Shown here: piece by piece, positions 32,100-57,422 of the stretch
Numbering within the stretch: the first letter of the stretch is position 1
Layout: each line of letters begins with the position of its first letter
Assembly: GCA_903873705.1 (NCBI GenBank)
Contig: CAIQPK010000072.1
Location: forward strand, 1 to 64,000
Direction of reading: 5' to 3'
DNA from: an uncultured Acidobacteriota bacterium
GTDB lineage: Bacteria > Acidobacteriota > Terriglobia > Terriglobales > Acidobacteriaceae
Length of the DNA stretch: 64,000 nt
Notes under the pieces: generated by a model
What the model was told of the DNA's origin: nothing
Database searches by the model: none
What the model saw: the letters and a program-made list of their open reading frames with translations, nothing else
Program-made: the position numbers and the translations under genes

Positions 32100-32106
32100 C
32101 CTCGAC

Positions 32107-38188: not shown

Positions 38189-39553
38189 ATGCTGGAAACC
38201 AAGACAAATTCGATTGAGCTAAAGACGTCGATTCCCGGACCCGCCTCCTCGGTATGGCTCCGTCGTCGCTCGGCTGCTGTCCCTACCTCGCTGGGGACCG
38301 TTATTCCGGTCTTCATTAGCAAGGCCGATGGTGCGGTGCTGGAAGACATAGACGGCAATCGGTTCCTTGATTTTGCGGGCGGCATCGGTTGTGTGAATGC
38401 TGGACATAGCGCGCCTGAAGTAGTGCAGGCGATCCAGGAACAGAGCGAGCGGTTTCTTCATACGTGTTTCATGGTCAATCCCTACGAGGGGTACGTGATG
38501 CTTGCGGAGGAGCTGAATCGCCGCACGCCCGGCACCTTCGCTAAGAAGACGCTGCTGGCAAACTCCGGCGCTGAAGCCGTCGAGAACGCTGTAAAAATTG
38601 CGCGTGCCTACACGGGGCGGTCCGGAATTATTGCGTTTGAAGATGGTTTCCATGGGCGCACGCTGCTGACGACCAGCCTGACCAGTAAGACCTCTCCCTA
38701 CAAAAGCGGGTTCGGGCCATTCGTGCCGGAAATCTATCGCATGCCTTATGCGTACTGCTATCGCTGCAATTACAACCTCACCTACCCTGAGTGCAAAGTG
38801 CACTGCGCGGAAAAGTTGGAGGATGTGTTCCTGCGCTATGTGGCGGCGGAGTCAGTTGCTGCCGTGATCTTTGAACCGGTGCTGGGCGAAGGCGGATTTG
38901 TGGTGCCACCGACGGAATGGTTTGCGAAGATTGCGGAGATTTGCCGCAAGCACGGTATTGTGATCATCGCTGATGAGGTTCAGACAGGATTCGGGCGGAC
39001 GGGAGCAACGTTTGCGTGTGAACGCTTTGGACTCGAGCCAGACCTGATTTGTATGGCGAAGTCATTGTCATCGGGCTTGCCGCTGGGAGCAGTGACGGGG
39101 CGCGCGGAGATGATGGATGCACCGGGCCCGGGACAACTGGGCGGCACCTTTGGCGGCAATCCCATTGCCTGCGCTGCTGCTTTGGCGTCGTTGAAGGTTC
39201 TTGATGACAGCGACGCGAATGAGCGCGCCAATGCCTTTGGGCGAGTGTTCAGCGTCTTCGCCAGTGACTGGCAGCGGCGATTTGCCAACGTTGGCGACGT
39301 ACGGGGCGTGGGCGCGATGCAGGCCATTGAGTTGGTCACGGACCGCACGTCGCGCACTCCGGCAAAGGAACTGACGCAGAGGGTGTTGGCCCATTGCCAT
39401 CAACAGGGGCTGTTGATCCTTTCGGCGGGTGTTTATGGCAATGTGATTCGCATGCTGACCCCGCTGGTGGCTACGGAAGAGCAGATTGAAGAAGGCCTCA
39501 CGATTCTTGGCTCGGCGCTCGAAGCTGTTTGTGGTGGAGCAGGGGCAAGCTAG
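38189..39553 (+). CDS. gabT: Class III aminotransferase, 4-aminobutyrate aminotransferase-like
   Basis: FLDFAGGIGCVNAGHSAPEV, NSGAEAVENAVKIAR, MPYAYCYRCNYNLTYPECKVHCAE, IADEVQTGFGRTG, MAKSLSSGLPLGAV. Confidence 0.85.
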   Translation: MLETKTNSIELKTSIPGPASSVWLRRRSAAVPTSLGTVIPVFISKADGAVLEDIDGNRFLDFAGGIGCVNAGHSAPEVVQAIQEQSERFLHTCFMVNPYEGYVMLAEELNRRTPGTFAKKTLLANSGAEAVENAVKIARAYTGRSGIIAFEDGFHGRTLLTTSLTSKTSPYKSGFGPFVPEIYRMPYAYCYRCNYNLTYPECKVHCAEKLEDVFLRYVAAESVAAVIFEPVLGEGGFVVPPTEWFAKIAEICRKHGIVIIADEVQTGFGRTGATFACERFGLEPDLICMAKSLSSGLPLGAVTGRAEMMDAPGPGQLGGTFGGNPIACAAALASLKVLDDSDANERANAFGRVFSVFASDWQRRFANVGDVRGVGAMQAIELVTDRTSRTPAKELTQRVLAHCHQQGLLILSAGVYGNVIRMLTPLVATEEQIEEGLTILGSALEAVCGGAGAS

Positions 39554-39619
39554 AGCAGCCAGACATATTTTCGGCAAAAGATGCAGTGCAGATCCGCGCC
39601 TGCAGGTAAGAAAAAGAGG

Positions 39620-41056
39620 ATGCTCATGTTGCCGGACAGGACAACTGAACCGATATTGCTAGCAGGCCGAATTGAGTCTCGTGCTGAGACCGTGACTATT
39701 CGCAATCCTTATAACAACGCACTGGTGGGCGCGGTTTGTCAGGCTTCGCTGGAGGATGCTGAAACGGCGTGTGCTGCTGCCGTACGTGGCTTTGCCATGA
39801 CGAGGAAGCTGGCAGCGTGGGAGCGGGCGGCGATTCTGACGCGGATCGCCGACGCGCTCGCGGCTGAGGCGGGAGATATTGCGCAGACTATCGTACTGGA
39901 AGCGGGGAAGCCGCTGAAGGATGCGTTGGGTGAAGTATCGCGCGCGGTCAATACGTTCCGCATAGCGGCGGAAGAAGCGAAACGGATTGATGGTGAAGTT
40001 AAGCCGGCTGATTGGATTGCGGGGACCGAGGGCCGCGTGGCGTTGTCACGACGCTTTCCGATTGGGCCGATTCTGGGCATCACACCGTTCAACTTTCCGT
40101 TGAATCTGGTGGCCCACAAGTTGGCTCCGGCGATTGCGTCGGGTAACCCCGTTGTGATCAAACCTGCGCCACAGACGCCGTTTACCGCGCTTCGCCTTGG
40201 ACGCATCGCGGTTGAGGCGGGATGGCCGGCTGAAGCAATCAGCGTGCTCCCTTGTTCCAATGAGGCTGCAGCGGCGATGGTTACGGACGATCGCATGGCC
40301 ATGCTGAGCTTCACGGGGAGCGTATTGGTCGGGTGGAAGTTGAAAGAGATGGCGCCGCGAAAGCGGGTGACACTTGAGCTGGGTGGAAACGCCGCGGTAA
40401 TTGTCTGTGCCGACGCCAACATGGAGCTTGCGGCTCAGCGTATCCTCGCCGGCGGCTACACATATGCGGGGCAGAGTTGCATTTCGGTGCAGCGTGTCTA
40501 TGCTCACACGTCAGTCTTGAGCGATTTGGTGAAACGCATTAGCGATGGCCTGTCGAAGCTTGAAGTCGGCGACCCTGCTTTGGAAACGACGCGCGTCGGG
40601 CCGATGATCAACCTGGGCGCCGCCGAGCGTGCTGAAAGCTGGATAGGTGAGGCTGTCAATGCAGGGGCGACGCTGCATGCAGGCGGCCAGCGGAACGGCA
40701 CGACGCTCATGCCGGCTTTGCTTACAGGCGTTCCTGCCGATTGCCTGCTGTGCCGTGAGGAGGCTTTCGCTCCCATTGTTGTCGTGAATAGTTTTGATGA
40801 TCTGGACGAGGCGCTGGCGGCGACCAATGCATCGCTTTACGGGCTGCAGGCGGCGATCTTTACGGCGAGCTGGGCATCGATGGCCCAGGCCTGGAATGAG
40901 CTCGAAGTGGGAGCTGTGCTGGTTGATGAGTCGTCGGCATGGCGTGCGGACCAACTGCCGTATGGTGGCGTTAAAAACTCTGGGGTAGGCAAAGAAGGAG
41001 TTCGCTCAGCCATTGAAGAAATGACTGAGTCGAGAATGCTGATCGTTCCTGTATAG
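39620..41056 (+). CDS. Aldehyde dehydrogenase family protein (semialdehyde dehydrogenase-like)
   Basis: ITPFNFPLNLVAHKLAPAIASGNP, LELGGNAAVIVCADA, YAGQSCISVQRVY. Confidence 0.85.
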   Translation: MLMLPDRTTEPILLAGRIESRAETVTIRNPYNNALVGAVCQASLEDAETACAAAVRGFAMTRKLAAWERAAILTRIADALAAEAGDIAQTIVLEAGKPLKDALGEVSRAVNTFRIAAEEAKRIDGEVKPADWIAGTEGRVALSRRFPIGPILGITPFNFPLNLVAHKLAPAIASGNPVVIKPAPQTPFTALRLGRIAVEAGWPAEAISVLPCSNEAAAAMVTDDRMAMLSFTGSVLVGWKLKEMAPRKRVTLELGGNAAVIVCADANMELAAQRILAGGYTYAGQSCISVQRVYAHTSVLSDLVKRISDGLSKLEVGDPALETTRVGPMINLGAAERAESWIGEAVNAGATLHAGGQRNGTTLMPALLTGVPADCLLCREEAFAPIVVVNSFDDLDEALAATNASLYGLQAAIFTASWASMAQAWNELEVGAVLVDESSAWRADQLPYGGVKNSGVGKEGVRSAIEEMTESRMLIVPV

Positions 41057-41078
41057 CTCCGGGTGGTGCCGCAGGCGA

Positions 41079-42467
41079 TTATGCCAGGGGATCAAATACC
41101 TCTTCAGCTTCGTCGTTCTGCTCTTCTGATTTGCGGCGAAGGAGGATGAGCGGGAGTATGACGATCATCGTGATGATGTAAATGTAGGGGAGCCGGTGAT
41201 AAGCCCCTTCTGTCGCGTCGAACGAACTGACGGCGGCGAGCCCGAGGATGAAGAGCGATCCCAGCAAAGAAATGGTCGACATGAACGTGAAGTCTTTGGT
41301 GCGGCGCAGCAACACCGCGGACCCAACCGCGACGAGGAAATACGCGGTGATGAAGCCGTAGGTTGCGAATGTTCCGGACCAGCCGTAGACGTCGAATGGA
41401 ACGACGCCGTCGGCCGTCATGAACACGACGCCGAGCAAAATGATAACGGATACGAGAACGATTGCGACGTGCGGCGTCTGGTGGTCTTCGTGCGTGAGTC
41501 CACATGCGCGGTGCAGGTGGCGGTCATGGCTGAGCTTATAGAGTATGCGCGAAGCCGCAGAGATGCAGGCGAGCGTGCAGGCGAAAAAGCTGCAGACCGT
41601 GGTGGCCGTGATGAAAACAGACAGATAGGGAAGATGGCGGAGTTCGCTGAGGAGTTGAAGTGGGGCGCCACTCTGAGCGAGCTGGTCTGCGTGTCCGGCG
41701 AAGCCAATGCTTTCAGCGTATGCGGCGAGGATGAAGAAGAGACCGGAGATCCATGCGGTAAGCGAGATGGCGCGCGGAATGGTCTTGAGTGGGTTGACTG
41801 CTTCGACGCCGAGGGATGCAGCGCTCTCGAAGCCGACAAATCCAAAGATGGCGAGGACAAGGCCGCCGCGGACCTGGGTGAGTGAAACGCCCTGCAGGAG
41901 CCACTGTGACCTATCCCATGTGAGCGCGGTGCGCGGTCCGGGAAGAAGGAAGAGTGCGAGGATGAGCAGGATCGAGAAGGCCTCGATGATTAGCATGACC
42001 CGCGCGGAGATATGTACATCGCGATAGGCGAGGAAGGCGGCGAGCGACACAGCGGCGATGGCGATGACGATGGTCGCGAGGATGGAGGTGTGCACGTGCG
42101 CGCCGAGGAGCGAGTACATGTAAATCGTCAGGCCGCCGACCACGGCACAGCCCGTTCCGATATAGGCGATCAGCAGCGCCCACGCTGTGAACAGACTGAC
42201 GCCCGAGCCAAGGCTCTCGTCAACGAACGTATAGAGCGAACCTGAGGAACTCGAGCGCTTTGCAAAAATGTTGATCTGGTGCGCTACGCAGGCCATGGCC
42301 AAAAGCGCGAGCAGGCAGGCAAGCCACGAGCCGTTGCCGGAGAGCGCCAAGATAAAAGGCACGCCCATCGCCGGTGTGGCCGTTGGAGCAATATTGGCCA
42401 GCGATTGGCCGATGGCTTCCCATTGTGAAAGCGTACCTGCCCTGAGTTCGGTGCTGCTCCTGTGCAT
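41079..42467 (-). CDS. APC-superfamily amino acid/polyamine permease
   Basis: 462 aa; FGFVGFESAASLGVEAVNPLKTIPRAI typical APC motif. Confidence 0.85.
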   Translation of the reverse strand: MHRSSTELRAGTLSQWEAIGQSLANIAPTATPAMGVPFILALSGNGSWLACLLALLAMACVAHQINIFAKRSSSSGSLYTFVDESLGSGVSLFTAWALLIAYIGTGCAVVGGLTIYMYSLLGAHVHTSILATIVIAIAAVSLAAFLAYRDVHISARVMLIIEAFSILLILALFLLPGPRTALTWDRSQWLLQGVSLTQVRGGLVLAIFGFVGFESAASLGVEAVNPLKTIPRAISLTAWISGLFFILAAYAESIGFAGHADQLAQSGAPLQLLSELRHLPYLSVFITATTVCSFFACTLACISAASRILYKLSHDRHLHRACGLTHEDHQTPHVAIVLVSVIILLGVVFMTADGVVPFDVYGWSGTFATYGFITAYFLVAVGSAVLLRRTKDFTFMSTISLLGSLFILGLAAVSSFDATEGAYHRLPYIYIITMIVILPLILLRRKSEEQNDEAEEVFDPLA

Positions 42468-42717
42468 ACTTTTACCCCCGCGGCCAGAAAGTGTACGAAT
42501 GCGTCAACGTGGCGGCAATGCCAAGTGCGCAGGTATGAGTTGTGGTCGGTTTGGTAACTCTGGATAGCTGGGAAAAGGTTACAACATTTTTGCAAGGTTG
42601 AACACAACGAAATGCAGTGCCGCCAATGCGATTCATCTCATTTAAAGTAGCGACAGTAAAACTACATAATTCTTGCGCCTGCAATTTTTATCAACGCAGA
42701 ATGCTGTTTTCGCGGAG

Positions 42718-43587
42718 CTAGAAAGTTGGCGGTGTATTAACCCAGAGCAGCTTCGCTTCAACCTGGCCGGGATTGCTCCAGCGGTGGGTCTGCATGCTGG
42801 AGAAGTACAGGCAGTCGCCTTCGCGGAGTAGATGGTGCTCAACTTCGTCGAGCCAGATATCGCAGACGCCACTGAGCATGTAGATGAACTCCTCACCTTC
42901 GTGATGATAGGAGCCGCCACTCGATGTACCGGGAGCGAGATTGAAGATGCATGTTTCCATGGCTACTTCGCCAAAGGCAAGTAGCTCGATCTCAATGCCT
43001 GGTTCGCTCGACATGATTTTGCGCTGGTGAGGGCGAACGAGCTTCGTGATCTTATTGTTGGCTGGCGCCGTACCCGAGTCGAAAAGCGAAAGAACACTGG
43101 TTTTATAGAAGACCGAAAGCTTCTGCAGTGTAGCGACAGATGCATAAACCTGACCGCGTTCCAGGCAGCTAAGGAAGCTGGGAGAAATGCTGGTGGCGGT
43201 GGCTACTTCAGCCAGTGTGATCTTTCGTTCCTTACGGAGTTGACGAAGCTTTCGGCCGATCGGGTAAACCAGCTCGCGTGGGTTGCCTTTGGGGGTGGGA
43301 GGCTGGGGTTTTTCGCCTTCTTTGCCGAGCAGGTGACGGATGGCCTCGATGTTGAGGCCCTTATCCAGTCGAAGATGCTGGATGTACTTGAGAAGGTTGA
43401 CTTGTTCGAGCGAAAACGTGCGGTAACCACCACGGGTTCGTGACGGGTGTGTAAGCCCTGCGTTTTCCCACTGACGCAATGCCGAAGGGCTGATGCCGAG
43501 CATCTTGGACACTTCAGAGATGCGGAACTGGAACGTATTCTGTGCGGTTGCAGCAGATTTTCGCTCAGCACTTTTCCGGGGACTCAT
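42718..43587 (-). CDS. Transcriptional regulator with MerR HTH + XRE HTH + cupin domain
   Basis: MerR: FRISEVSKMLGISPSALRQWENAGLTHPSRTRGGYRTFS; XRE: IGRKLRQLRKERKITLAEVATATSISPSFLSCLERG; cupin: SYHHEGEEFIYMLSGVCDIWLDEVEHHLLREGDCLYF. Confidence 0.88.
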   Translation of the reverse strand: MSPRKSAERKSAATAQNTFQFRISEVSKMLGISPSALRQWENAGLTHPSRTRGGYRTFSLEQVNLLKYIQHLRLDKGLNIEAIRHLLGKEGEKPQPPTPKGNPRELVYPIGRKLRQLRKERKITLAEVATATSISPSFLSCLERGQVYASVATLQKLSVFYKTSVLSLFDSGTAPANNKITKLVRPHQRKIMSSEPGIEIELLAFGEVAMETCIFNLAPGTSSGGSYHHEGEEFIYMLSGVCDIWLDEVEHHLLREGDCLYFSSMQTHRWSNPGQVEAKLLWVNTPPTF

Positions 43588-43665
43588 AGTTCCGAGGAGT
43601 ATAGCAGCCAGTATTGGCGCGGGAGTTTATCGCGCGGGCACTCGCCAAGCGATTATCGAAACATT

Positions 43666-44274
43666 CTAGATTCCATCGGCATAGTGAATTATTCTGCGAA
43701 GCTTTTTCGGTAACGGACTCATGAGCAGATGAGCTGAGTTAACCTCGTGGCAAGTCATACAGCCGGTGGGACCTTCGCGCTGCTTGTGGCATCCGACGCA
43801 GCCACCCATCGTGGTCACGTTGGTGACTTTGGCGATCGTGTCCATCTTGACGACGTCACCGTGGCAGGATGCGCATTCAACCTTGGCGGTGAGATGAACG
43901 TCGTGACTCCAATACACGAATCCGGGAACGCTGTAGACCTGGACCCAGGGAATCGGAGTGCCGGATTTCACGAACTCCGTAAGCTTCTGGACGCCGGGCT
44001 TGTCGGTCCCCATGGTGGCGTGACAGCGCATACATTTTGCGGTACCCGGCAGCGTCATTTGAACGCCGGGGTCCGGCTTGACGTGGCAAAAGGTGCACGG
44101 CAGCTTCATATCGCCTGCGTGCTTTTTATGGCTGAAAGGAAGGGGCTGAACGGGAGCTTCCGGTGAAGCCGGAGGGGCTTCACCGGATTGCGCAACGCAA
44201 AGCGTAGCTCCGGTAAGGAGCAACGCCCATAACAAAACGATCGACGACACAACCTTCATGGCTGACCCTGACAC
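43666..44274 (-). CDS. Pentahaem cytochrome c3/c7-like protein
   Basis: 202 aa; CTFCH, CMRCH, CASCH, CVGCH, CMTCH. Confidence 0.85.
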   Translation of the reverse strand: MSGSAMKVVSSIVLLWALLLTGATLCVAQSGEAPPASPEAPVQPLPFSHKKHAGDMKLPCTFCHVKPDPGVQMTLPGTAKCMRCHATMGTDKPGVQKLTEFVKSGTPIPWVQVYSVPGFVYWSHDVHLTAKVECASCHGDVVKMDTIAKVTNVTTMGGCVGCHKQREGPTGCMTCHEVNSAHLLMSPLPKKLRRIIHYADGI

Positions 44275-44290
44275 CTGGTTAGCGTTCAGT

Positions 44291-46195
44291 TTATCTGAGC
44301 CCCTGCGTCAGCCAGATCTCTTCCACGGCGCGGTTGGCTTCGTCCATGGCCGTGTTGGTGAAGGCCGCTGCGCCGGAGTCCGTGTTAGCGATGGTGATGC
44401 GACCGAAGCGTGCGCGACCGATGACATGCGGGCGCTGCTCTTCGGGCATGTCGGGATCGTTCAGCGTGTCGTAGGTATAAGCGTAGCCGTATGGCCAGCG
44501 ATTGACGGTGATCGCGAGAATGTCGTCGGCTGCGTTGAAGCCCGCGGGCCCGAGAACGCGCTGGAACTGCTTGCGGATGATGAGTTCGTGATCGGAGAAG
44601 GTCATCGTCAGGAGTTCCTTCTGTCCGGCGAGGTTCTGGTCTTTGCGGTTAGGCAGGCCGGGATGATTCGGACTCTTGTTGAGATGAATGTTGATCGGTT
44701 CGGTGGGGTCACCTACGGCCTGATAGCCGCCGACCAGGTTGCCGGTGTCGATGCCAATGCTGGGGTAGTACATGCCGGGGCACGTAACGCGTGAGACGCC
44801 GAGCTTCTGGAACGACGTCCAGTTCTTGATGACGACGTTGGTGTACATCATCGGAACCTTGACGTTGTTGAGCAGCGCCTTCTTCTGCACGATCGGCAGT
44901 TCAGGGATGAGGTCCGGCAGCAGGCGGTTGTAGCAGGCCATGACAACCCACTTTGCGCGCACGGCCTGGAGCTTGCCGTCCTTGTTGTAGGCGATCTTTA
45001 CGCCCGTGGACTTTTCCGCGGTGCCTTCGAGCATGACCCGGACGACTGGAGCACTGAGGCGCACGCGAATCGGGTTGTCTGCCTTGTCGAGCGCGCTGTA
45101 GTCCAGCTTCGCGTTGACGATGGTGTCCATGTTCTGAGGCTGTTGAGCAAAAGCCGTAGGAACGATCTTGCTGATGAGCAGACGAGCGACCGAGGCGTTG
45201 CCGTCAGGGAAGTGGAAGGTGAACGAACCCTCACTGTACTGCTCCTCGAACTTGAGGCCAAGACCGTTGAAGCCGGCGGAGCCATGGGTTCCGGCTTCGT
45301 AGGCGGGCATCGTGTCGATGAACTTGTTATTGCGGCCGCTGGTGTTCTTCATGAACACCATAACCTGCGGATCGACCTTGGCATAGTTCGCCAGAAAATC
45401 CTTGTAGCTCATGCGTTTGAGCTTCTCGACCTTTTGAGCTTCGGTCATGCCGGGCATGTAGTCGGGATTCTTGCCGTTGATGCGGATGAGATCTGCCTGC
45501 GCCTTGGGGTTGAGCGGGGTCTTGGTGAAAAAGTCCGACATGCCGCGCCGACCATAGCCCAGTACCATGCGATCTTCGCCGAAAGTCTCCTTGTCGAAGA
45601 AGAGGCCGGTGCCCAACTTGTACTTGGTTTCAAGAATGTGATTGGTGAGCTCAGAAGATCGGCTAACCTTGATGCCGAGCTCCTGCAACACCGACTTCGC
45701 CATATAGCTATAGGGGAAGGGCGTCGCAATGCCCATCGTTCCGCCGTAGCTGATGAAGGTCTTGTCGCCGATCTTGAATTCATTGCGCTTGGCGTGGCCA
45801 CCGAAATCATCGTTATTATCGATCACGAGAATTTTCTGCTCGGGGCCCAGACCACGCTGATAGAAAAGTGCAGCGGAAAGTCCGGAGATGCCGCCCCCCA
45901 CAACAACGAGGTCGTACTCTTCGGTGATGGCATCATTCGCGACCGGGAAGGCCTTGTACTTGCCGGCCTGAATATCGGGGAAGTCGGCGATGGCGGGAAC
46001 GAGATTACCGCGGAGGCCCGTATTGAGCGGAGGGTACGCGGGTGAGACTACCGGTTGATAGTCTGCACCCGCAGCCAGGGCGGGGAGACCCAGGCTATTC
46101 GCGGCCAGTCCGACGCCAGTGACAGCGACTCCATTCATGAAGTCGCGCCGCGTGATGGAACAGCCCATGCCAAGTTTCTGTTCTTCGTTCGTCAT
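44291..46195 (-). CDS. Tat-exported FAD-dependent amine dehydrogenase, spermidine dehydrogenase-like (paralog 1)
   Basis: ITRRDFMNG Tat motif; DLVVVGGGISGLSAALFYQRGLGPEQKILVIDNNDDFGGHAKRNEF. Confidence 0.8.
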   Translation of the reverse strand: MTNEEQKLGMGCSITRRDFMNGVAVTGVGLAANSLGLPALAAGADYQPVVSPAYPPLNTGLRGNLVPAIADFPDIQAGKYKAFPVANDAITEEYDLVVVGGGISGLSAALFYQRGLGPEQKILVIDNNDDFGGHAKRNEFKIGDKTFISYGGTMGIATPFPYSYMAKSVLQELGIKVSRSSELTNHILETKYKLGTGLFFDKETFGEDRMVLGYGRRGMSDFFTKTPLNPKAQADLIRINGKNPDYMPGMTEAQKVEKLKRMSYKDFLANYAKVDPQVMVFMKNTSGRNNKFIDTMPAYEAGTHGSAGFNGLGLKFEEQYSEGSFTFHFPDGNASVARLLISKIVPTAFAQQPQNMDTIVNAKLDYSALDKADNPIRVRLSAPVVRVMLEGTAEKSTGVKIAYNKDGKLQAVRAKWVVMACYNRLLPDLIPELPIVQKKALLNNVKVPMMYTNVVIKNWTSFQKLGVSRVTCPGMYYPSIGIDTGNLVGGYQAVGDPTEPINIHLNKSPNHPGLPNRKDQNLAGQKELLTMTFSDHELIIRKQFQRVLGPAGFNAADDILAITVNRWPYGYAYTYDTLNDPDMPEEQRPHVIGRARFGRITIANTDSGAAAFTNTAMDEANRAVEEIWLTQGLR

Positions 46196-46243
46196 ACGCC
46201 CTCACAAGATAAGTGGTGTTGCGTTCGCGAAAACTGATGGAAA

Positions 46244-46807
46244 CTATTTCTTGGGAACCCAGGTAAGGTCGTACTCCTGCTTCCAGGTCACACCATCGTC
46301 ATCGGAGCCCATGGAAAGCTCTTGAATCTTGCCGTCGGGTTTTTTCAGCAGGCTCCAGTGACGCAGTCGCACAGCGCCGCCGGGCATTGGCTGCAAGAGG
46401 CGGAAGCGGATACCGTCAGGTACTAACGTGCCCTCAAAGTGGCTGGTGGCGCCGGCGCCCGAAACCCAGAAGTACTCCCACTTGCCGGTGCGCTGATTGT
46501 AGGTGCTCAGGCCGAGTCCATCGCCAGTTGCGCCGCGTGCGGCTTTCCACACTTCAGAGATGCCGCAGGTGTTCAGCACCTTCGTCACCGAGACGTCTGA
46601 GGATTTCTTTCCGTCGGCGCTGAAAACTTCCCATTCGCCTACCCAATAGTCAAGCTGGCGAAACTCAGGATGTGCGACAGCATCAAGACAAGGCGACGGG
46701 CGGGGCGCCGGAGGAGTCGCCGGAGCGGCCGTCTGGGAAACGGCTGGAAGCGCAATGGACAGCGCACAAAAGAGAAGGGCGGGAGCTGCTGGCGTCAGTC
46801 GTGGCAT
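46244..46807 (-). CDS. DUF1579-like secreted hypothetical protein
   Basis: 188 aa; signal peptide; FRQLDYWVGEWEVFSADGK...TWKQEYDLTWVPK. Confidence 0.7.
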   Translation of the reverse strand: MPRLTPAAPALLFCALSIALPAVSQTAAPATPPAPRPSPCLDAVAHPEFRQLDYWVGEWEVFSADGKKSSDVSVTKVLNTCGISEVWKAARGATGDGLGLSTYNQRTGKWEYFWVSGAGATSHFEGTLVPDGIRFRLLQPMPGGAVRLRHWSLLKKPDGKIQELSMGSDDDGVTWKQEYDLTWVPKK

Positions 46808-47256
46808 GGTCACCTCAGATCCGGTTCGGGTCGTGGAGCGATGGGTGCGGAGACGGCGTGGAAGAAGCGAAAGGAATGCGCTGTGTTGGCGAATTTCACT
46901 AACCTTACTTCTCTTCTCTTTGCATGTCAATCGCGTGCGTGAAATTAGTTTGCGGCCCTGTTCATGCGGCGGCGGATTTCCATAGAGATTTCCGGTACGG
47001 GCAAATGAGTGCTTGACGTACCTCACTAACCTTGCTATTTTTTTGCAAAGCTCTCCTCGACGCAACGCCCCACAAATTGCCAGCGCCAGCGTAACTTTCA
47101 TTGCGCAGGCGATTCTCTTTACCTTCTGGCATTCTCACATTCCCTTTCGTCAACTCGAAAGGGATCGACGGAACTCAGGATTTAGCGGACTCACTCCTAT
47201 TTTGCAAGACGCGCAATCAATGCGCTGCAAGTTCAACCGGATTCCCAGGAGAAGTA

Positions 47257-48585
47257 TTGAGCCAACTCGTTGAAGCCGCGCCGATTGCCCCTGGACTTAA
47301 AAATCAGTGGCTGCCGTTCACGCCGAACAGAGACTTCAAAGAAGATCCGCGAATCTTCGAACGTGCGAAGGGAATTTACTTTTACGGGCCCGAAGATAAA
47401 CCCATTCTGGACGGGAGTTCGGGTCTCTTCACCACGCCGGCGGGTCATGGGCGAGAAGAGATTGCCGAGGCGGTTTACGCACAAATTCTGCGGCTCGATT
47501 ACACGTCAAGTTTTTATCGCAGCCATCCGGGCGCGATGGCTGCGTGCCAGGAGATCGGGAAACTGCTACCTGTGGGCCTGGACCATATCTTTCTGACGAA
47601 CTCGGGTTCGGAGGCCGTCGATACCGCGCTGAAGATCGCTTTGCAGTATCAGCGGGCGCGCAAGCAGGGGACCCGAAATATCTTCGTGTCGCGCGAAGGG
47701 GCGTATCACGGAGCGAACCTCTCCGGTGTCGCGCTATCGGGTATCGCGGGGAATCGACGTGACTTCGGCATGCCGATTCTCCCGGTGGTGCATATGCGCC
47801 ACACCTGGCAGGAAGCCAATCGTTTCCAGCCAGGGCAGGGGACTTACGGAGCGGAACTGGCGGACGACCTCCTTCGCCTGATCCGCCTGCATGGTGTGGA
47901 AAATATCGCCGCCTGTATTGTGGAACCGATCATAGGATCAGGCGGTACACATGTCCCACCCGTGGGCTATCTTGAGCGGCTTCGCGCCATCTGTGATGAG
48001 CACGATGTGTTGCTGATCTTTGACGAGGTGATCTGCGGATTTGGCCGCACCGGCAAGGCGTTTGCTGCCGATGCGTTCGGTGTGACACCCGACATGATGA
48101 CCATGGCAAAGGCCGTGACGAACGGCGTCGTTCCCATGGGCGCGGTTGCGGTGCGCTCGGAGATTTACGAAACGATCGTCGAGGCAGATCCCAATCGCAC
48201 GGTTGAGCTTTTTCACGGCTACACCGGATCGGGACATCCCGTTTCCTGCGCTGCCTGCCTTGCGACGTTGAAGATCTATGAAGCTGAAGATCTGTTCGAG
48301 AACGCGAACAAGCTGTCGCCTTATTTTCTCGAGAAGATATTCAGCCTGGAAAAGTTTGAAGGCGTTGACGACATTCGCGGTTATGGGATGTTGGCCGGCG
48401 TAGACATTAACCCCAGCGTGCTCGGCACCAATGGTTACGGGTTTCAAAAACGGCTCTACGACCACGGGCTCCATGTAAAGACGACCGGCAACACGGTGAT
48501 TTTGTCACCGCCATTCATCTGTACCCACGGCGACATCGATGCCATTGCCGCTACGCTGGCGGAATTGCTGGCCAAAAAGTCTTGA
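47257..48585 (+). CDS. Class III aminotransferase (omega-amino acid:pyruvate-like)
   Basis: AGGAG then TTG start; LDGSSGLFTTPAGHGREEIAEAV, LTNSGSEAVDTALKIALQY, IFDEVICGFGRTGKAFAAD. Confidence 0.85.
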   Translation: MSQLVEAAPIAPGLKNQWLPFTPNRDFKEDPRIFERAKGIYFYGPEDKPILDGSSGLFTTPAGHGREEIAEAVYAQILRLDYTSSFYRSHPGAMAACQEIGKLLPVGLDHIFLTNSGSEAVDTALKIALQYQRARKQGTRNIFVSREGAYHGANLSGVALSGIAGNRRDFGMPILPVVHMRHTWQEANRFQPGQGTYGAELADDLLRLIRLHGVENIAACIVEPIIGSGGTHVPPVGYLERLRAICDEHDVLLIFDEVICGFGRTGKAFAADAFGVTPDMMTMAKAVTNGVVPMGAVAVRSEIYETIVEADPNRTVELFHGYTGSGHPVSCAACLATLKIYEAEDLFENANKLSPYFLEKIFSLEKFEGVDDIRGYGMLAGVDINPSVLGTNGYGFQKRLYDHGLHVKTTGNTVILSPPFICTHGDIDAIAATLAELLAKKS

Positions 48586-48608: not shown

Positions 48609-48636
48609 TTGACTGTCAAAAAAAATGCTGTATAAC
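48609..48636 (+). promoter_or_regulatory. Putative sigma70-type promoter for TonB receptor gene
   Basis: TTGACT-16 nt-TATAAC; implies a leader of about 310 nt. Confidence 0.45.
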
Positions 48637-48954: not shown

Positions 48955-51930
48955 ATGGCCCAGACCGATCGCGTTTACGCCAAACTCGTCAACTTGCCGA
49001 GCTTTTCGACCATCAATCGAAAGCGTCGCCATAGAGATGGATTCTCGTGGGCGGTGATGCTCACCGTTCTCTGTATCTTTGCGTTCGTGACGTCGTTCTC
49101 TACGGCATCATTCGCGCAGACGAGCTCGACTGAAGGTGCGATCATCGGATCGGTGACCGACAGCACGGGCGCGGCGATCCCTGGAGCCATCGTGACGCTG
49201 ACAGGCGCGAAGGTCATGGGACCGACCAAGGTCACGGCCGGTTCAGACGGGCAATATAAGTTTCCGGCCCTGCAGCCAGGCGAGTATTCGGTCTCGGCTT
49301 CGCACGAAGGCTTCGCAGTCGGCCAGGTGAAGAGCATCAACGTGGGGCTCGGCTTCACGGCCACGGTACCGATTTCATTGCCCGCGGGTAGTGTCGAGCA
49401 GGTTGTTTCGGTTGATGCCTCCGGCACCTCGATCGACACACAGTCACAAAACGTAACCACGCGTCTTAGCACGGCAGCGCTCGAAGAGCTTCCCGGTTCG
49501 CGCGACTTTTGGGCTGTTATTGCGCAGGCTCCCGCCATTGCAGTGGGACGCGTGGATGTTGGCGGAAGCAACGCGCTGACGCAGCAGTCGTCGATTACTT
49601 ACGGTCTGACGAGCGGCTCGGGCGTCAATCGCGGCATGGTCGAAGGCGTGATGGTGAACGAAGGCGCCGGCGGCAGCAGCGAAATGTACTACACGGACTT
49701 TGGTGCACTGGCTGAAATGTCGGTCAATGCGGCGGGTAATAACGCCGAGATGCCGAACCCAGGTGTGCTAACCCAACTCATCGTTAAGTCGGGCGGCAAT
49801 CAATATCACGGCAACGTCTACTACGATTACGAAAACGACTCACTGGAAGGCGCCAACATCGATGCCAACCAGATCGCGCTCGGCGTCAAGGGAAGCAACG
49901 TTCTCTCGGTTTATGACACCAACCGCATCAGCAAGTTCTCCGACTTCAACGCCGACCTGGGTGGCTTTATCGTGAAGGATAAGCTGTGGTGGTATGGCGC
50001 TTTCCGATATACGTCCGTTGGTCAGCGCTATCCGACACTCATCGACGACACGCAGGTTACAACGTCGCCCGTCTGGACCGGCAAGATCAACTACGACATC
50101 AACGGCAAGCAGAAGATCATTGGTTTCTACCAGCACTCCGCCAAGGTTCAGCCCGACTACCTCGGCGCCATTCTGATCAGCGGAGCCCGTGCAAGCCCGG
50201 CGTTGATGGGCAAGGACACCGTCTGGAGTTCTTCATTCCCCACCTATGTCTGGAAGGCTGAGTACGACTACACCATCACCAACAATCTGCTGCTGGAAGC
50301 GCGTGTAGGCCAGTATCACTCCGACTGGGACCGTCACTATAAGAGCAGCGACGCCCGAATTGAAGATACCAGCAGCAACTACGTCTATGGTGGCGTCTAC
50401 AACTCCGAAAATAAGCGCAGCCGTCCTCAGTTCAGCGGCAGCGTGGTTTGGGCCCACTCGGGCTGGTTGGGTAGCCACTCCTTCAAGTTCGGTGGCGAGT
50501 ACATGCGTGACACCATCACGCAGCCGGCCGGCCTCTTCGGCAGCTCCTGCCAGTGCGTTTCGCAGCTGGTGGCGGGTGCACCCACGCAGGTAACGATCTA
50601 CCAGGCGAATATCTCCATCAACGGCAACTCCACAATCGGTGTTTATGCCCAGGACACCTGGAACATGACACGCCGGCTTAACGTCAACCTCGGCGTACGC
50701 TTTGACCACAACAACCTGTTCAACCCGGAGCAGACCGGCGCGGATGGAACCAAGTACGCCGCCGTTTCGAGTGCGTTCCACTTCAACAACGTCGGACCGC
50801 GCATCGGCTTCGACTATGACGTCTTTGGCAATCACAAGACGGTAGTGAAGAGCAGCTTCGGCCAATACTTCGTTTACCCAGGCTCCGACTATGCCGGCAA
50901 CTTCAACCCGAACACTGCAGGCGGATGGAAGAAGGTCTATCAGTGGACCAATACGACCATCACGAATGGCGGCGGCACGCCTTGCGGCGGTACCGTAGCT
51001 ACTGGTGATGTTCCCACTTGCCACTGGGACGGCAACTCGAAGACGCTCGGCAACCTGGTCAGCTCAGCCGGCGGTGTCAACACAATCAGCATCGATCCGA
51101 ATTTGAAGAACACCTACACGCTGCAGGGAACGATGTTCGTCGAGCGTGAAGTGGTTCCCAATTTCACGGTTCGCACCGGATTTGTGTGGAATGGTCGTCG
51201 CGATGTTGCGGCGAGCATCTATCCGACGCGCCCCCTCTCCGCGTACATTCTTCAGCCCAACCCGTTCTACATTCCCGGACCGACCGCAGGAAGCGCGTGT
51301 TCCACAGACTGCGGCTACGGCTCGTATAGCTACTATGATCTTCCCACCCCGGTGACCGCTGCGGTGGCGCAGACCCATAACATCCATGCATCGTCCAACT
51401 ACTACAGCTGGGAAATTTCCGGGGCCAAGCGCAGCGGTAAGATCGACGTGCTGGCCAGCTACGCCAGGACATGGTCGTACGAAACTACGTTGGGCGCCAC
51501 AAATGCTTACACCCCGAACGCGCAGCTTGGCGCTCCGGGCTTCACTAACTCCTTCTACACCTGGCAAGCGAAGGTCAATCTGACTTATCGCGCACCGTAC
51601 GGCATTCGACTCATCCCGGTGATGACCATGCAGTCGGGTACGCCCTTCGCCCGCACCTTTACCCGAACGATGAATTATGGGTCCACGACATTCCTCGCTG
51701 AGTCATTCGGTTAAGAACGCACGCCGGTCATTGCTCCCGTCAACGTTCGTATCGAGAAGGAGTTTCGCATCAAGGAACGCTTGAAGATCAGCGCCCTGGG
51801 TGATGCTTACAACATCTTCAACACCAATGCGATCCAGGCGACTACCGTTGCTTCGGGTACGTCCTTCCTGCGGCCGGCTGCTATTACTGGTCCGCGTGTA
51901 GGCCGTGTTGGTTTCAAGGTCCAGTTCTAA
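48955..51930 (+). pseudogene. TonB-dependent receptor (Oar-like), interrupted by in-frame TAA at 51712-51714
   Basis: Ordinary ORF ends ...GSTTFLAESFG*; same frame continues ERTPVIAPVNVRIEKEFRIKERLKISALGDAYNIFNTNAIQATTVASGTSFLRPAAITGPRVGRVGFKVQF* with the canonical C-terminal Phe. Confidence 0.8.
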
Positions 51931-51958
51931 CCAGTAGCGAAGTAAGGGAGCATTTGTA

Positions 51959-53992
51959 ATGAAGAAGACTGATGCAGAACTTGGAATGGGAACCGAGATC
52001 ACACGTCGTGATTTCGTCAATGGTGTAGCAGTCACGGCGGCAGGAGCTATGCTCCTGCCGTCGTGGGGCCTTGCGCAGGAACAGAAGGCTGCGCTGGAGC
52101 CGGCTGAAACCGGTGTAGGAGAAGGCCGTTACGAAGGCGCAGAAACGGGTGGTCCGGGCGAGGCTTATCCGCCGCGAAAAACAGGTATGCGCGGCAGCCA
52201 TCCGGGATCGTTCGAGAGTGGACATCAGCTTCGGGACAATCCCAAAGAAGTGATCAAGCCGGAGATGCTGGACGAGGAGTATGACCTCGTCGTTGTCGGC
52301 GCCGGAATGAGCGGCCTCAGTGCCGCCTATTTCTTTGTCAAGAATGTAGGCCGCGAAGCGAAGGTGCTGATACTGGATAACCATGACGACTTCGGTGGTC
52401 ATGCCAAGCGCAACGAGGTGATGGTCGGCGGCAAGCTGATGGTCGTCAATGGCGGCACGCTCAACATCGAAGCACCGGCGTTCTACAACGAGTACGCGCT
52501 GGACATGTTCAAGGACATCGGGCTCGACCTGCCGCGCTACCTCAAATCGAACGAGACGAACCGTGCACTTTATCGGGGGCTCGGCATGAAGAGTGCCTAC
52601 TTCTTCGACAAGGAGACGTGGGGCAAGGACGTGTTCGTGATGAACGAGGGCGGGCGCGGCGAAGGCGGCGGCATCACCATGGAGTTCCTCAACAAGACGC
52701 CCCTCTCTGAAAAGGCCAAGCAGGACGTGCTTCGTCTGGCAGATGCCAAGAACGCGCCGGATTATTTCCCGGGAATGTCAGAAGACGAGAAGCGCGTCAA
52801 GCTGGCAAAGATGAGCTACGAAGATTACCTGCTGAACGTGGTGAAGGTGGCCAAGCAGGTGATGTGGTTTCATCAGAGCTTCGGTGAAGGCAACTTCTGC
52901 GTTGGCGCCGATCAGACTCCCGCGCTGTTTGCGTGGGCGATGGGCCAGCCTGGCTTTGCCGGGTTGAAGCTGACGCCGGAGACTAAGGGCGTGTTGGAAG
53001 AACTGCCGGGGACGCAGCATGGACGGCAGAGCTCCAACCGCGGTGGCTCGGTACACTTTCCGGATGGCAACGCGATGGTCGCTCGTTCGATCGTGCGTTG
53101 GCTGATTCCAGAAGCACTGCCGACTGCGAAGACCATGGAAGATATGGGCGCGGCGCACGTTGATTACTCGGTGATCGACAAGCCCGGTAATACGGCCCGC
53201 ATTCGCGTCAGCAGCACCGTGTTGAACGTGAAGAATGTTGGGCCCAAGAATCGCGAGACCGGCACTATCGTTTCGTACAGCAAGGGCGGCAAGATGTACT
53301 CGGTGAAAGCTAAGGCCACGATCATGGCCAGCTGGAACATGATGATCCCGTACATCATTCCCGATATGCCGAAGGAGCAGAAGGACGCTCTCTCGTATGC
53401 CGTCAAGGGCCCCTTGATGTACACCAGCGTGGCCATCAGAAACTGGCAGGCATTCAAGACTGCTGGCGTTTCGAGTATCAACTCGCCGACGATGTACTAC
53501 CCGTCGATCGGGCTGACCGAAGCCGTTTCGCTTGGTGACTTGAAGCATCCTCAATCGGTGGATGAGCCTATCTTTCTCCACATTTCCAAGATCTTCGTGA
53601 CGCCCGGCAAGCCACGCAAGGACCAGCACCGATTGGGCCGGTTTGAGCTACTGGGAACAACCTTCGAAGAGATGGAGCGCAAACTGCGCGATCAACTGAA
53701 CCGTCAGCTGGGACCGTTCGGTTTCGATGCGAAGCGAGATATCGTTTCGATCCAGGCAAACCGCTGGCCCCACGGCTATGCGTATACCTATAACGGCTTG
53801 AACGAGCCGCTGGAGTGGGTGTACACGAACTCGCCGCATTCACCTTGTGTGATTGCCCGGCAGCCGTTCGGCCTTATCTCGATTGCCAACTCGGATGCAG
53901 GCGCCAGCCCGCATACGGATACGGCAATCTTCCAGGGTCATCGTGCGGTGGACGAAGTACTCAACCGCCGTTCCATGCCTTACCTCGCGTAG
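51959..53992 (+). CDS. Tat-exported FAD-dependent amine dehydrogenase, spermidine dehydrogenase-like (paralog 2)
   Basis: ELGMGTEITRRDFVNGVAVTAAG; DLVVVGAGMSGLSAAYFFVKNVGREAKVLILDNHDDFGGHAKRNEV. Confidence 0.82.
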   Translation: MKKTDAELGMGTEITRRDFVNGVAVTAAGAMLLPSWGLAQEQKAALEPAETGVGEGRYEGAETGGPGEAYPPRKTGMRGSHPGSFESGHQLRDNPKEVIKPEMLDEEYDLVVVGAGMSGLSAAYFFVKNVGREAKVLILDNHDDFGGHAKRNEVMVGGKLMVVNGGTLNIEAPAFYNEYALDMFKDIGLDLPRYLKSNETNRALYRGLGMKSAYFFDKETWGKDVFVMNEGGRGEGGGITMEFLNKTPLSEKAKQDVLRLADAKNAPDYFPGMSEDEKRVKLAKMSYEDYLLNVVKVAKQVMWFHQSFGEGNFCVGADQTPALFAWAMGQPGFAGLKLTPETKGVLEELPGTQHGRQSSNRGGSVHFPDGNAMVARSIVRWLIPEALPTAKTMEDMGAAHVDYSVIDKPGNTARIRVSSTVLNVKNVGPKNRETGTIVSYSKGGKMYSVKAKATIMASWNMMIPYIIPDMPKEQKDALSYAVKGPLMYTSVAIRNWQAFKTAGVSSINSPTMYYPSIGLTEAVSLGDLKHPQSVDEPIFLHISKIFVTPGKPRKDQHRLGRFELLGTTFEEMERKLRDQLNRQLGPFGFDAKRDIVSIQANRWPHGYAYTYNGLNEPLEWVYTNSPHSPCVIARQPFGLISIANSDAGASPHTDTAIFQGHRAVDEVLNRRSMPYLA

Positions 53993-54066
53993 TTGGCGAG
54001 AATGGCCGGCTGGAGCTCATGGCTCTGGCCGGCCAATACTTTGGCGCAGCGACCCGGGAGCGTGCG

Positions 54067-56139
54067 ATGAGCGAGTATTCAGACCTTTCGCCGTTGGATC
54101 TTAAACTGGGCATGGGCTGTCCCATCTCACGCCGCGACTTCGTCAATGGGATTTCCGCTACCGCCGTGGGGGCGATGTTGCTGCCGTCGATCGGGCTCGC
54201 TCAGGAAGCAGCCCAGGCCGCGGCGGAAACGGGTGTTGGCGCGGGACACTTCACAGGTGCGGAGACGGGCGGCTCTGGCGAAATGTATCCGCCGCGCAAG
54301 ACAGGCATGCGAGGTAGTCATCCGGGCTCGTTTGAGCAGGCACACCAGCTGCGCGATAACCCCAAAGAGGCACTCGCGAACGCCACATCCGTCGACGAGG
54401 TTTACGACCTTATCGTTGTCGGCGCGGGCATGAGCGGGCTCAGCTCCGCTTACTTCTTCCAGAAGAACGTGAGCAAGGATGCGAAGGTGCTGATCCTTGA
54501 TAACCACGATGACTTTGGCGGCCATGCCAAGCGCAACGAGTCTATCGTCAACGGCAAGATGATCGTGACGCAGGGCGGCACGGTCGATCTTGAAGCACCT
54601 TCTTATTACTCCGCCGAAGCCAAGGCGATGATGAAGGACATTGGCATCGACCTTGACCGCTACGTGAAGACGAACGAGGTCAATCGCACCCTTTATCGCG
54701 GTCTTGGCCTGCGCAGTGCTTATTTCTTCGATAAAGAGACATGGGGTAAGGATGCGTTCGTCATCAACCCGGGCGGCGCTGTTTTCAGCAGAGAGTTTCT
54801 GGATGCGACGCCGCTTACTGAAAAGGCGAAGGCCGACATGTTGCGCTTGCAAAATGCCAAAGGTCTGCCGGACTTTTTTGCTGGGATGTCTGACGATGAC
54901 AAGCTGGTAAAGCTTGCGACGATGAGCTACGAGGACTACCTGATGAAGGTGGTCAAGGTCGACAGGCAGGTCTACTGGTTCTATCAGCACTTTGGCGAGG
55001 GACAATTTTGCGTGGGCGCGGACCAGACGCCGGCGCTCTATGCGCACAATATGGGGCTGCCAGGGTTTGAGGGTCTGAAGCTGCCCGAGATCAGCGAAGG
55101 TATTCTTGATGAATTGCCGGGGCGGCAGCACGGCCGGCAAAAGGAGAACCCTTTGCGCGAACAGCGCATTCATTTTCCGGATGGCAACGCAACGGTGGCC
55201 CGCATGCTGGTGCGGTGGTTGATTCCGGAGGCTATCCCCGGTACTACGATGGAGAGTATCGGTGCTGCGCAGGTCAACTACGGGTTGCTGGATCACGAAA
55301 GTCAGTCCGCGCGCATCCGTTTGAGCAGCACCGTGCTTCACGCCAGGAATGAAGGACCGAAAGGGCGCGAAACAGGTGTGAGCGTTACGTATAGCAAGGG
55401 GGGCAAGCTGTACACGGTGCGCGGTAAAGCCTGTGTGATGGCCAGCTGGAACATGATGATCCCGTTCATCATTCCCGAACTGCCTGAAGCACAGAAGACG
55501 GCATTGCATTATGCCGTGAAGGGGCCGCTGGTATCGACGACAATTGCGGTGAAGAACTGGAGTGTCTTCAAGAAGGCCGGTGTATCGAACATCAGCTGCC
55601 CTTCGATGTATCACACGTCCATTGGCCTCTCGACCGCAGTTTTACTGGGAGACCTTCAGCATCCGCAGTCGCCTGACGAACCTATTTTCCTGCATATGGG
55701 AAAAGACATGGCTAACCCCGGCCTGCCGCGGAAGGACCAGCACCGCATGGGCCGGATGCAATTGCTGAACACGTCGTTCGAGACCTGGGAGCGGAACATC
55801 CGAGAACAGCTCAATCGCGTGCTTGGTCCCCATGGCTTTGATCCAGCCCGGGATATCGTCGGCATTACCGTCAACCGCTGGCCGCATGGTTATGCGTACA
55901 CCTACACCGGTCTGCATGAGCCGCTGGAGTGGGTGTACACGGCCTCACCGAATCGTCCGTGCGTGATTGCGCGGCAGCCATTCGGGCTGATTTCCATTGC
56001 CAACTCCGACGCCGGCGCGAGTCCGCACACCGACACCGCTATCTGGGAAGGGCACCGGGCTGTTGACGAGATACTCAACCGCCGGTCGATGCCCTTCCTT
56101 AGCAAGACAATGCTTCACCAACCCGAGCTGGAAGGATAA
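54067..56139 (+). CDS. Tat-exported FAD-dependent amine dehydrogenase, spermidine dehydrogenase-like (paralog 3)
   Basis: KLGMGCPISRRDFVNGISATAVG; near full-length similarity to paralog 2. Confidence 0.82.
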   Translation: MSEYSDLSPLDLKLGMGCPISRRDFVNGISATAVGAMLLPSIGLAQEAAQAAAETGVGAGHFTGAETGGSGEMYPPRKTGMRGSHPGSFEQAHQLRDNPKEALANATSVDEVYDLIVVGAGMSGLSSAYFFQKNVSKDAKVLILDNHDDFGGHAKRNESIVNGKMIVTQGGTVDLEAPSYYSAEAKAMMKDIGIDLDRYVKTNEVNRTLYRGLGLRSAYFFDKETWGKDAFVINPGGAVFSREFLDATPLTEKAKADMLRLQNAKGLPDFFAGMSDDDKLVKLATMSYEDYLMKVVKVDRQVYWFYQHFGEGQFCVGADQTPALYAHNMGLPGFEGLKLPEISEGILDELPGRQHGRQKENPLREQRIHFPDGNATVARMLVRWLIPEAIPGTTMESIGAAQVNYGLLDHESQSARIRLSSTVLHARNEGPKGRETGVSVTYSKGGKLYTVRGKACVMASWNMMIPFIIPELPEAQKTALHYAVKGPLVSTTIAVKNWSVFKKAGVSNISCPSMYHTSIGLSTAVLLGDLQHPQSPDEPIFLHMGKDMANPGLPRKDQHRMGRMQLLNTSFETWERNIREQLNRVLGPHGFDPARDIVGITVNRWPHGYAYTYTGLHEPLEWVYTASPNRPCVIARQPFGLISIANSDAGASPHTDTAIWEGHRAVDEILNRRSMPFLSKTMLHQPELEG

Positions 56140-56141
56140 CT

Positions 56142-57422
56142 ATGGACAGCATCAATCGTCGTACCGTTTTGACCTGGATCGGCACTGCCGCCGGGGCCGT
56201 TGCGTCGAGCTCCATCGCGGGCGCTGAGCCTCTTGCTGCGCAGGCGAAGGCTCCTGCCATCGGGCGCAATCTGCCGGATGTGACCGTGCTGGGCGCTGGA
56301 GCGTTTGGCGCGTGGACGGCTCTGTGTCTGCGTGAGCGCGGAGCTAAGGTGACGCTGATGGACAGCTATGGCGCGGGTAATGCGCGGCAGGCTTCGGGTG
56401 ATGAGACGCGACAGATCCGCTGCGCTTACGGCGACCGCGAGATCTACTCGCGGTGGGCGCTGGAGGCGTTCGATATCTGGCATCGGCGACAGGACGAGTT
56501 CAAGCGGCGGCTGATCTTTGCCAACGGCGTGCTCTCGCCTAACGAGCCGATCGAGCAGTACGAGGCAGAGAAGCGGATTTTTACGAAGCTGAAGATTCCT
56601 TTTGAAACGTTGTCTGCTGAGGAGTGCAAGAAGCGCTGGCCGCAGGGCGGATTTGAAGGCGATGAGCGCGCGCTGTACGAGCCTAAGGCGGGTACGGTGA
56701 AGGCGCGCGAGACGCTGATCGCGGTGACCGAAGTGTTTGTGCAGAAGGGCGGCACTTACAAGATCGGCATGGGTTCGCTGGGTGCGAGCGCCGGCGGCAA
56801 GATGAGCAACCTGAAGCTGCAGGATGGCACGAAGGTGGATACCGGGATGGCGGTGTTTGCGTGCGGGCCATGGCTGCCTACGGCGCTGCCGAACCTGCTG
56901 AACAACTACATTCGCCGGACGCGGTCCGAGGTGTTTTATGTGGGTTCGCCGGCGGGCGATACGAGCTATACCTGGGAGCGGTTTCCGAATATGTGGCATG
57001 GCGGTGGCGGGTACTCGCTAAGCGATGTGGATTATGGCTACAAGGTGGCGCCCAGCGGGCCGGGCAGCCTGACTATCGATCCGGATACGGATGAGCGAAT
57101 TGTGTCGCCGATCATGTGGGAGATGGCTCGGCGGTTTGTGGCGCATCGGTGCCCGGGGCTGGTGAACCAGCCGATCGTGGCGAGCCGGGTGTGCAACCTG
57201 GAGAACTCGGACAACGAGCACTTCATCATCGACCAGCACCCGGAGCTATCGAACGTTTGGATCGCGGGTGGTGGGTCCGGTCACGGCTTCAAGATGGGGC
57301 CGAAGACGGGCGAGTATATTGCTGACCGGATCGTTGGCATTGCCGATCCGGCGGAGGAGAAGGGCCTGTTTGCATTGAGCGCTCATAAGGCGATCGGTGG
57401 GCGGCCGCTGGTACGGGGATGA
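56142..57422 (+). CDS. FAD-dependent oxidoreductase, DAO / monomeric sarcosine oxidase-like, with Tat-like leader
   Basis: NRRTVLTWIGTAAG leader; DVTVLGAGAFGAWTALCLRERGAKVTLMDSYG; GGGSGHGFKMGPKTGEYIAD. Confidence 0.85.
   Translation: MDSINRRTVLTWIGTAAGAVASSSIAGAEPLAAQAKAPAIGRNLPDVTVLGAGAFGAWTALCLRERGAKVTLMDSYGAGNARQASGDETRQIRCAYGDREIYSRWALEAFDIWHRRQDEFKRRLIFANGVLSPNEPIEQYEAEKRIFTKLKIPFETLSAEECKKRWPQGGFEGDERALYEPKAGTVKARETLIAVTEVFVQKGGTYKIGMGSLGASAGGKMSNLKLQDGTKVDTGMAVFACGPWLPTALPNLLNNYIRRTRSEVFYVGSPAGDTSYTWERFPNMWHGGGGYSLSDVDYGYKVAPSGPGSLTIDPDTDERIVSPIMWEMARRFVAHRCPGLVNQPIVASRVCNLENSDNEHFIIDQHPELSNVWIAGGGSGHGFKMGPKTGEYIADRIVGIADPAEEKGLFALSAHKAIGGRPLVRG

Follow-up and report, generated by a model that had tools for sequence, protein, structure and literature searches.

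A spermidine dehydrogenase-like flavoprotein that may have exchanged its haem b for a pentahaem cytochrome c partner in a putative exported amine-oxidation locus of Acidobacteriota

The spermidine dehydrogenase of Pseudomonas aeruginosa (PaSpdH) carries a surface haem b, ligated by His54 and His562, that is the first electron acceptor from flavin adenine dinucleotide (FAD), and the members of its family (SpdH) are described as dehydrogenases whose acceptors are cytochrome c or artificial ones (PMC12564564). In the heterotrimeric FAD-dependent glucose dehydrogenase, an exported flavoprotein dehydrogenase works with a distinct multihaem c-type subunit for electron transfer (PMC9727119), and alternative complex III has a pentahaem cytochrome, ActA (PMC5928083). 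Here we analyse a locus of an uncultured Acidobacteriota bacterium (contig CAIQPK010000072.1 of assembly GCA_903873705.1; the window is the whole stretch of 64 000 nucleotides that was analysed, positions 1 to 64 000) that encodes three SpdH-like flavoproteins (Fp1, Fp2 and Fp3) and a pentahaem cytochrome c (CytC5). We think it rather probable that the locus encodes an exported amine-oxidation pathway, in which Fp1 has come to rely on an external pentahaem partner in place of an internal haem b.

All three flavoproteins match PaSpdH (PDB 7D9F-7D9J) along the whole length (E-values 1e-114 to 1e-126), and they share with it a leader of the twin-arginine translocation (Tat) type, the FAD site and the fold. 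Both haem-b histidines are kept in Fp2 and Fp3, as they are in every complete homologue that is not of the Fp1 type (73 out of 73, Fp2 and Fp3 included). Unlike PaSpdH, Fp1 lacks both and is paired with a pentahaem cytochrome: it has Pro at position 54 and Tyr at position 562, and in family alignments neither stretch contains a further His. For Fp1 the AlphaFold2 model has a mean pLDDT of 84.3, and a Foldseek comparison of this model with the PDB gives SpdH at ranks 1-10 (TM-score 0.82 normalised by the query and 0.90 normalised by the target); as PaSpdH is the best PDB match of the model, the fold appears to be kept and the haem site lost. The two arginines of the Tat motif of Fp1 (R16 and R17) are invariant in 30 homologues, and TatC is encoded in the genome. 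Judged from its sequence, Fp1 is a derived SpdH-like variant and not an SpdH proper.

Fp1 has relatives in other Acidobacteriota. An earlier search of genome contigs with Fp1 peptide patterns returned no related loci, the patterns being apparently too specific. A DNA pattern for N-R-W-P-Y-G-Y (around position 562), searched against GTDB genome contigs, retrieved seven Acidobacteriota loci with Fp1-type proteins, and three others, which this pattern misses, came from the reading of whole genomes (L174, L214 and L215, in which residue 562 is His, Asn and Phe, respectively). With the protein of the window there are 11 Fp1-type proteins: none has His at position 54, eight have Tyr at position 562 (the others being one Phe, one Asn and one His), and all 11 share R-N-N-K at the place of Asp282 of PaSpdH. 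The Fp1 type forms a single clade (SH-aLRT support 100) within the family that has both histidines (the His/His family) in a tree of 67 homologues, which included the nine Fp1-type proteins then known (without L214 and L215). Because this clade is nested inside the His/His family, the loss of the haem ligands would be derived, and most simply it happened once.

The gene for CytC5 is found directly downstream of the gene for Fp1, after a gap of 16 nucleotides, and Fp1 is the only flavoprotein of the locus that adjoins it. A CytC5 homologue is encoded directly downstream and on the same strand in seven out of 11 Fp1 loci (the window, L166-L169, L214 and L215), and the cytochromes of these seven loci share 47-56% identity. 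When only loci with 1 kb or more of flanking sequence were counted, a pentahaem gene was found within 1 kb in six of nine Fp1-type loci versus none of 66 His/His loci (p = 4e-7 in a Fisher test, which ignores phylogeny). The preliminary description of this locus had proposed that electrons from the exported flavoproteins pass to the multihaem cytochrome. As a flavoprotein pairing this is supported in outline, but the pairing is specific to Fp1; a CytC5 serving all three flavoproteins was dropped, as Fp2 and Fp3 retain the haem ligands and no His/His homologue adjoins this cytochrome.

Homology and gene context suggest that CytC5 itself is an ActA-related partner module. It is homologous to ActA and has five haem motifs; however, it is only ∼30% identical, lies outside an act cluster, is predicted to be secreted and is paired with a flavoprotein gene. 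Its score against the curated QrcA model is 83.4 bits (cut-off 180), and where it adjoins Fp1 there is no act/qrc cluster (actB/nrfD). A distant paralogue (∼30% identity) is found in nearly all genomes of the order; in this genome it is located (G000:C2) among Fe-S, NrfD and cytochrome c genes in a cluster of the act type, and given this separate ActA cluster we rejected the possibility that CytC5 is simply the ActA of alternative complex III. The nearest CytC5 relatives outside the Fp1 loci (18 proteins, from the same order) are all encoded by genes that follow a flavoprotein gene, of the GMC type in 16 cases and amine-oxidase-like in two (both of the latter with Tat-like leaders), and in the cytochrome tree, partner type changes no more often than the minimum needed. 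In many genomes of the order (L181-L187 and L189-L198), GMC oxidoreductase genes are directly followed by genes for pentahaem ActA-like cytochromes; the consensus of these oxidoreductases begins without an obvious leader peptide. Pairing of GMC-type FAD dehydrogenases with pentahaem cytochromes is thus widespread, apart from SpdH.

The flavoprotein of FAD-dependent glucose dehydrogenase also has the GMC fold. As proposed from the genes, the Fp1-CytC5 arrangement would work like such FAD-GMC/multihaem c complexes, but the parts differ: the glucose dehydrogenase has an Fe-S cluster, a trihaem subunit of a different kind and a small subunit that serves Tat export, whereas Fp1 has the SpdH fold, carries a Tat leader itself and is paired with a pentahaem ActA/QrcA-like protein. 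By analogy, Fp1 would be functionally like the FAD dehydrogenases with a multihaem c subunit, but built on a spermidine-dehydrogenase fold; in the open-access literature we came across no SpdH relative described with a multihaem partner. Another arrangement is found in a metagenome-assembled genome of the Terriglobia that also has an Fp1 locus: a His/His SpdH homologue is directly followed by two proteins of ∼650 residues, cytochrome c7/c3-type, with 23 CxxCH motifs each (L179:8805-15162, G672:C116), possibly for long-range or extracellular electron transfer.

In the pathway that we propose, the Tat system would export the three SpdH-type flavoproteins, whose FAD would draw electrons from the C-N bond of an amine, with release of aldehydes and amines. 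Transport and three cytoplasmic enzymes (an aldehyde dehydrogenase, ALDH, and the transaminases GabT and AptA) would then make C4 and C3 omega-amino acids available to central metabolism. Fp2 and Fp3 would act as PaSpdH does, with a surface haem b taking the electrons from FAD. Because both haem-b ligands are lost in Fp1, its FADH2 would most likely be oxidised by the pentahaem cytochrome c of the next gene, and the cytochrome would pass the electrons on to the respiratory chain.

Several observations weigh against this proposal. There is no pentahaem gene near the Fp1-type gene in four out of 11 loci (L170, L172, L174 and L175), and the genomes of these loci hold only more distant, unlinked CytC5 homologues (≤42% identity). 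The Fisher value overstates the independent evidence, because the association rests on one clade. Seven of the 11 Fp1-type proteins were found by a pattern that contains Tyr562, which biases the count at this position (position 54 is outside the pattern, and L174, L214, L215 and the window were not found by it). L174 retains His562, and some other residue could ligate haem in Fp1. Finally, close relatives do not conserve the gene set in full, and the locus as a whole is rare.

The substrate is a separate question. It is quite conceivable, if somewhat short of probable, that the flavoproteins act on an amine that is not a polyamine (such as an aromatic amine, an N-acylated amine or an N-substituted amino acid), with GabT and AptA serving general omega-amino acid turnover; this concerns the substrate only and is compatible with the exchange of the haem partner. 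Two residues for which mutant structures of PaSpdH have been deposited are informative here: Fp1, Fp2 and Fp3 all have another residue in place of Asp282 (PDB 7d9i), and Tyr443 (7d9j) is kept in Fp1 and Fp2 but is Ser in Fp3, which suggests substrate divergence of Fp3 from its tandem paralogue Fp2. The R-N-N-K motif of Fp1 is basic, and such a motif would argue against a polycation as substrate. Genomic contexts point the same way: amidohydrolases and pyrroloquinoline quinone (PQQ) dehydrogenases are encoded beside Fp1 in L167, L168 and L170, and a sarcosine-oxidase-like protein is encoded within the locus. On the other hand, enzymes of the 4-aminobutyrate (GABA) route are found repeatedly next to His/His SpdH homologues, as is an ABC importer: L218 and L220 each encode a GABA transaminase scoring over its curated cut-off and two ALDHs (one nearest to betaine/aminobutyraldehyde dehydrogenases, the other nearest to succinic semialdehyde dehydrogenase), an enzyme set that, by its assignments, would cover the route from 4-aminobutanal via GABA to succinate, and L219 encodes a GABA transaminase and a binding-protein-dependent ABC transporter. 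This recurrence in other Acidobacteriota bears out the earlier proposal that amines are oxidised by exported SpdH-type enzymes. In the window, GabT and AptA would suit the C4 and C3 moieties of spermidine. A polyamine is nevertheless unproven as the substrate of the three flavoproteins, and for Fp1 it is doubtful.

We consider it unlikely that all three proteins are ordinary SpdH-type flavocytochromes, with Fp1 binding haem through other residues and CytC5 being a generic periplasmic carrier that is encoded nearby by chance. The preserved fold of Fp1, the His562 of L174 and the four Fp1 loci without the cytochrome would all fit this explanation; however, Fp1 has no His near either ligand site, position 562 has drifted to Tyr, Phe and Asn, and an adjacency kept in seven loci, among cytochromes as divergent as noted above, has no counterpart in the 66 His/His loci. 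It is likewise improbable that Fp1 is now an oxidase, or a dehydrogenase that uses a quinone or another carrier, with CytC5 serving just part of the clade. Clade members without an adjacent cytochrome must have some other acceptor, and the fold is distantly related to that of O2-using amine oxidases (according to Foldseek), but the position of the cytochrome gene in seven of the 11 loci, directly downstream and on the same strand, and the description of the family as dehydrogenases both speak against this reading. Carotenoid- or phytoene-like substrates can practically be dismissed: desaturase/ketolase-type models match another cytochrome-linked flavoprotein (L087) and none appears for Fp1-3, which match PaSpdH over their whole length (the ground on which we rejected such substrates), have Tat leaders and are encoded next to aminotransferases.

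The locus resembles the Puu system of Escherichia coli and the Pau system of Pseudomonas in that genes for an XRE-cupin regulator, an APC permease, an ALDH and a GABA transaminase are found together, but differs from both in that oxidation would be by exported SpdH-type enzymes. The comparison with Puu made in the preliminary description holds as a functional parallel and not at the level of the protein families: the regulator scores 57.5 bits against the PuuR model (NF007408, cut-off 211), the ALDH scores 219 against the PuuC model (cut-off 850), and the DAO protein is similar to monomeric sarcosine oxidase. The regulator does have the XRE and cupin domains that had been described, but it carries a MerR domain ahead of them. 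This MerR-XRE-cupin architecture is also found at the Fp1 loci L168 (14807-15742) and L170 (830-1678), with 41-43% identity, so that two different DNA-binding domains and a cupin sensor are kept together at three SpdH loci. Regulators of the XRE-cupin family in Pseudomonas are local repressors of metabolic genes, polyamine genes among them, and MerR is not mentioned in the open-access paper that describes them (PMC7901475). Such a repressor role, taken by analogy, fits the locus without identifying a ligand.

Conservation of the whole locus among close relatives was rejected: no SpdH was found in any of 27 congeners, and in none of 20 SpdH neighbourhoods of the family did we find the set of GabT (>45% identity), regulator, cytochrome and receptor. 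The modules of the locus recur in distant Acidobacteriota, where they surfaced only once the Fp1 clade had been found there. GabT homologues are encoded beside SpdH in L170, L173, L176, L218, L219 and L220, and homologues of the TonB-type receptor (45-52% identity) beside Fp2-type SpdH in L168, L170, L173 and L176. For example, at L168 Fp1 with CytC5 is accompanied by the receptor, an Fp3-like SpdH (60% identity) and the MerR-XRE-cupin regulator; besides Fp1, L170 encodes the regulator and the receptor, two copies of SpdH, GabT and another GABA transaminase, a PQQ dehydrogenase, an ALDH and an amidohydrolase; at L173 and L176 the receptor is found with SpdH and GabT; and L167 has an SpdH-Fp1-CytC5 run adjoined by an amidohydrolase, with an APC permease, an ALDH and a DAO protein nearby. 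Exported amine oxidation is supported by this recurrence, and the co-occurrence of the families expected from the preliminary description is found in distant genomes, though close relatives lack the locus. The GC content of the locus (57.6%) is near that of its flanks (59.1% and 61.1%), and composition gives no support for recent foreign DNA, a possibility that we rejected; the patchy distribution allows an older transfer or loss. In another SpdH neighbourhood (L222:1647-4988), a large TIR-NACHT-type protein adjoins the SpdH homologue; it may be an immunity gene that has nothing to do with the pathway.

If the exchange proposed for Fp1 is true, it would be a natural replacement of one electron-transfer cofactor by another, from a built-in haem b to a separate multihaem protein, and the clade would be an outsourcing branch of a haem-b enzyme family with intermediate sequences still visible. 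Fp1 versus Fp2 and Fp3, encoded in one locus, make a ready comparison pair for the role of the SpdH surface haem, which matters for SpdH-based direct-electron-transfer biosensors. A general cytochrome module would, in that case, tie several exported dehydrogenases of Acidobacteriota to respiration. Tentatively, a broader combination may be put forward, possible but harder to credit as a whole: that the proteins of the Fp1 clade form a new periplasmic dehydrogenase class with a recruited pentahaem cytochrome c replacing the built-in haem b, that modular ActA-related cytochromes of Acidobacteriota link SpdH-like, GMC and amine-oxidase-like folds to respiration, and that the substrate of Fp1 is a new, non-polyamine amine.

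The features of the locus are listed in the table. All genes named in the preliminary description are present as long open frames at the coordinates given there, and their families were matched by profile and PDB searches.

Table. Features of the putative amine-oxidation locus (positions in the window)
Feature	Position	Strand	Basis
GabT-like 4-aminobutyrate:2-oxoglutarate transaminase	38123..39553	+	TIGR00700, 566.7 bits (cut-off 506.65)
Cytoplasmic aldehyde dehydrogenase (ALDH)	39581..41056	+	PF00171, E 8e-133; passes no NCBIfam cut-off
APC-type amino acid/amine permease	41079..42467	-	PF00324/PF13520
Regulator: MerR helix-turn-helix (HTH), XRE HTH, cupin sensor	42718..43587	-	PF13411, PF01381, PF07883, each over cut-off
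CytC5, secreted pentahaem cytochrome c, ActA/QrcA-like	43666..44274	-	five CxxCH
Fp1, Tat-exported SpdH-like flavoprotein without haem-b ligands	44291..46195	-	PaSpdH, E 1e-114
Fp1 codon aligned with PaSpdH His562 (Tyr)	44489..44491	-	alignment
Fp1 R-N-N-K motif at the place of PaSpdH Asp282	45323..45334	-	alignment
Fp1 codon aligned with PaSpdH His54 (Pro)	45977..45979	-	alignment
Fp1 Tat motif (S-I-T-R-R-D-F), Arg16-Arg17	46145..46150	-	sequence
Small secreted protein upstream of Fp1	46244..47101	-	real start inside frame
AptA-like omega-amino acid (beta-alanine):pyruvate transaminase, class III	47101..48585	+	NF052567, 537.3 bits (cut-off 500)
Outer-membrane TonB-type receptor, carboxypeptidase-like N-terminal domain	48955..51714	+	PF25183, PF00593, PF13620
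Fp2, Tat-exported SpdH-like flavoprotein, both haem-b His present	51959..53992	+	PaSpdH, E 6e-126
Fp3, tandem paralogue of Fp2, both haem-b His present	54067..56139	+	68% identity to Fp2
DAO/monomeric-sarcosine-oxidase-like flavoprotein, Tat leader	56142..57422	+	PF01266, E 4e-42

Four class-III aminotransferases are encoded in the genome, two of them inside this locus, and the genome has exactly three SpdH homologues, all inside it; the grouping of these genes therefore exceeds chance. Some real starts differ from the open frames: that of CytC5 is probably an ATG a few codons inside the frame, that of the AptA-like protein (PDB matches 4uhm and 4b98) is ∼50 codons inside, and Fp3 starts near 54067 rather than 53815. 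The DAO protein is homologous to sarcosine oxidases of solved structure in the PDB along its full length (E 5e-26 over residues 47-397), and it scores under the curated cut-offs of the named sarcosine-oxidase family members. Scans of the small secreted protein against Pfam and NCBIfam gave no match.

A neighbouring gene group (26467-36536 of the window) resembles those for breakdown of aromatic or ring compounds: it encodes an ALDH, an intradiol-dioxygenase-like protein, an MFS transporter, an SDR protein, an MmgE/PrpD-like protein and a Tat-exported molybdenum hydroxylase (33739-36536). These assignments were mostly read from the sequence, with a profile scan for the molybdenum subunit only.

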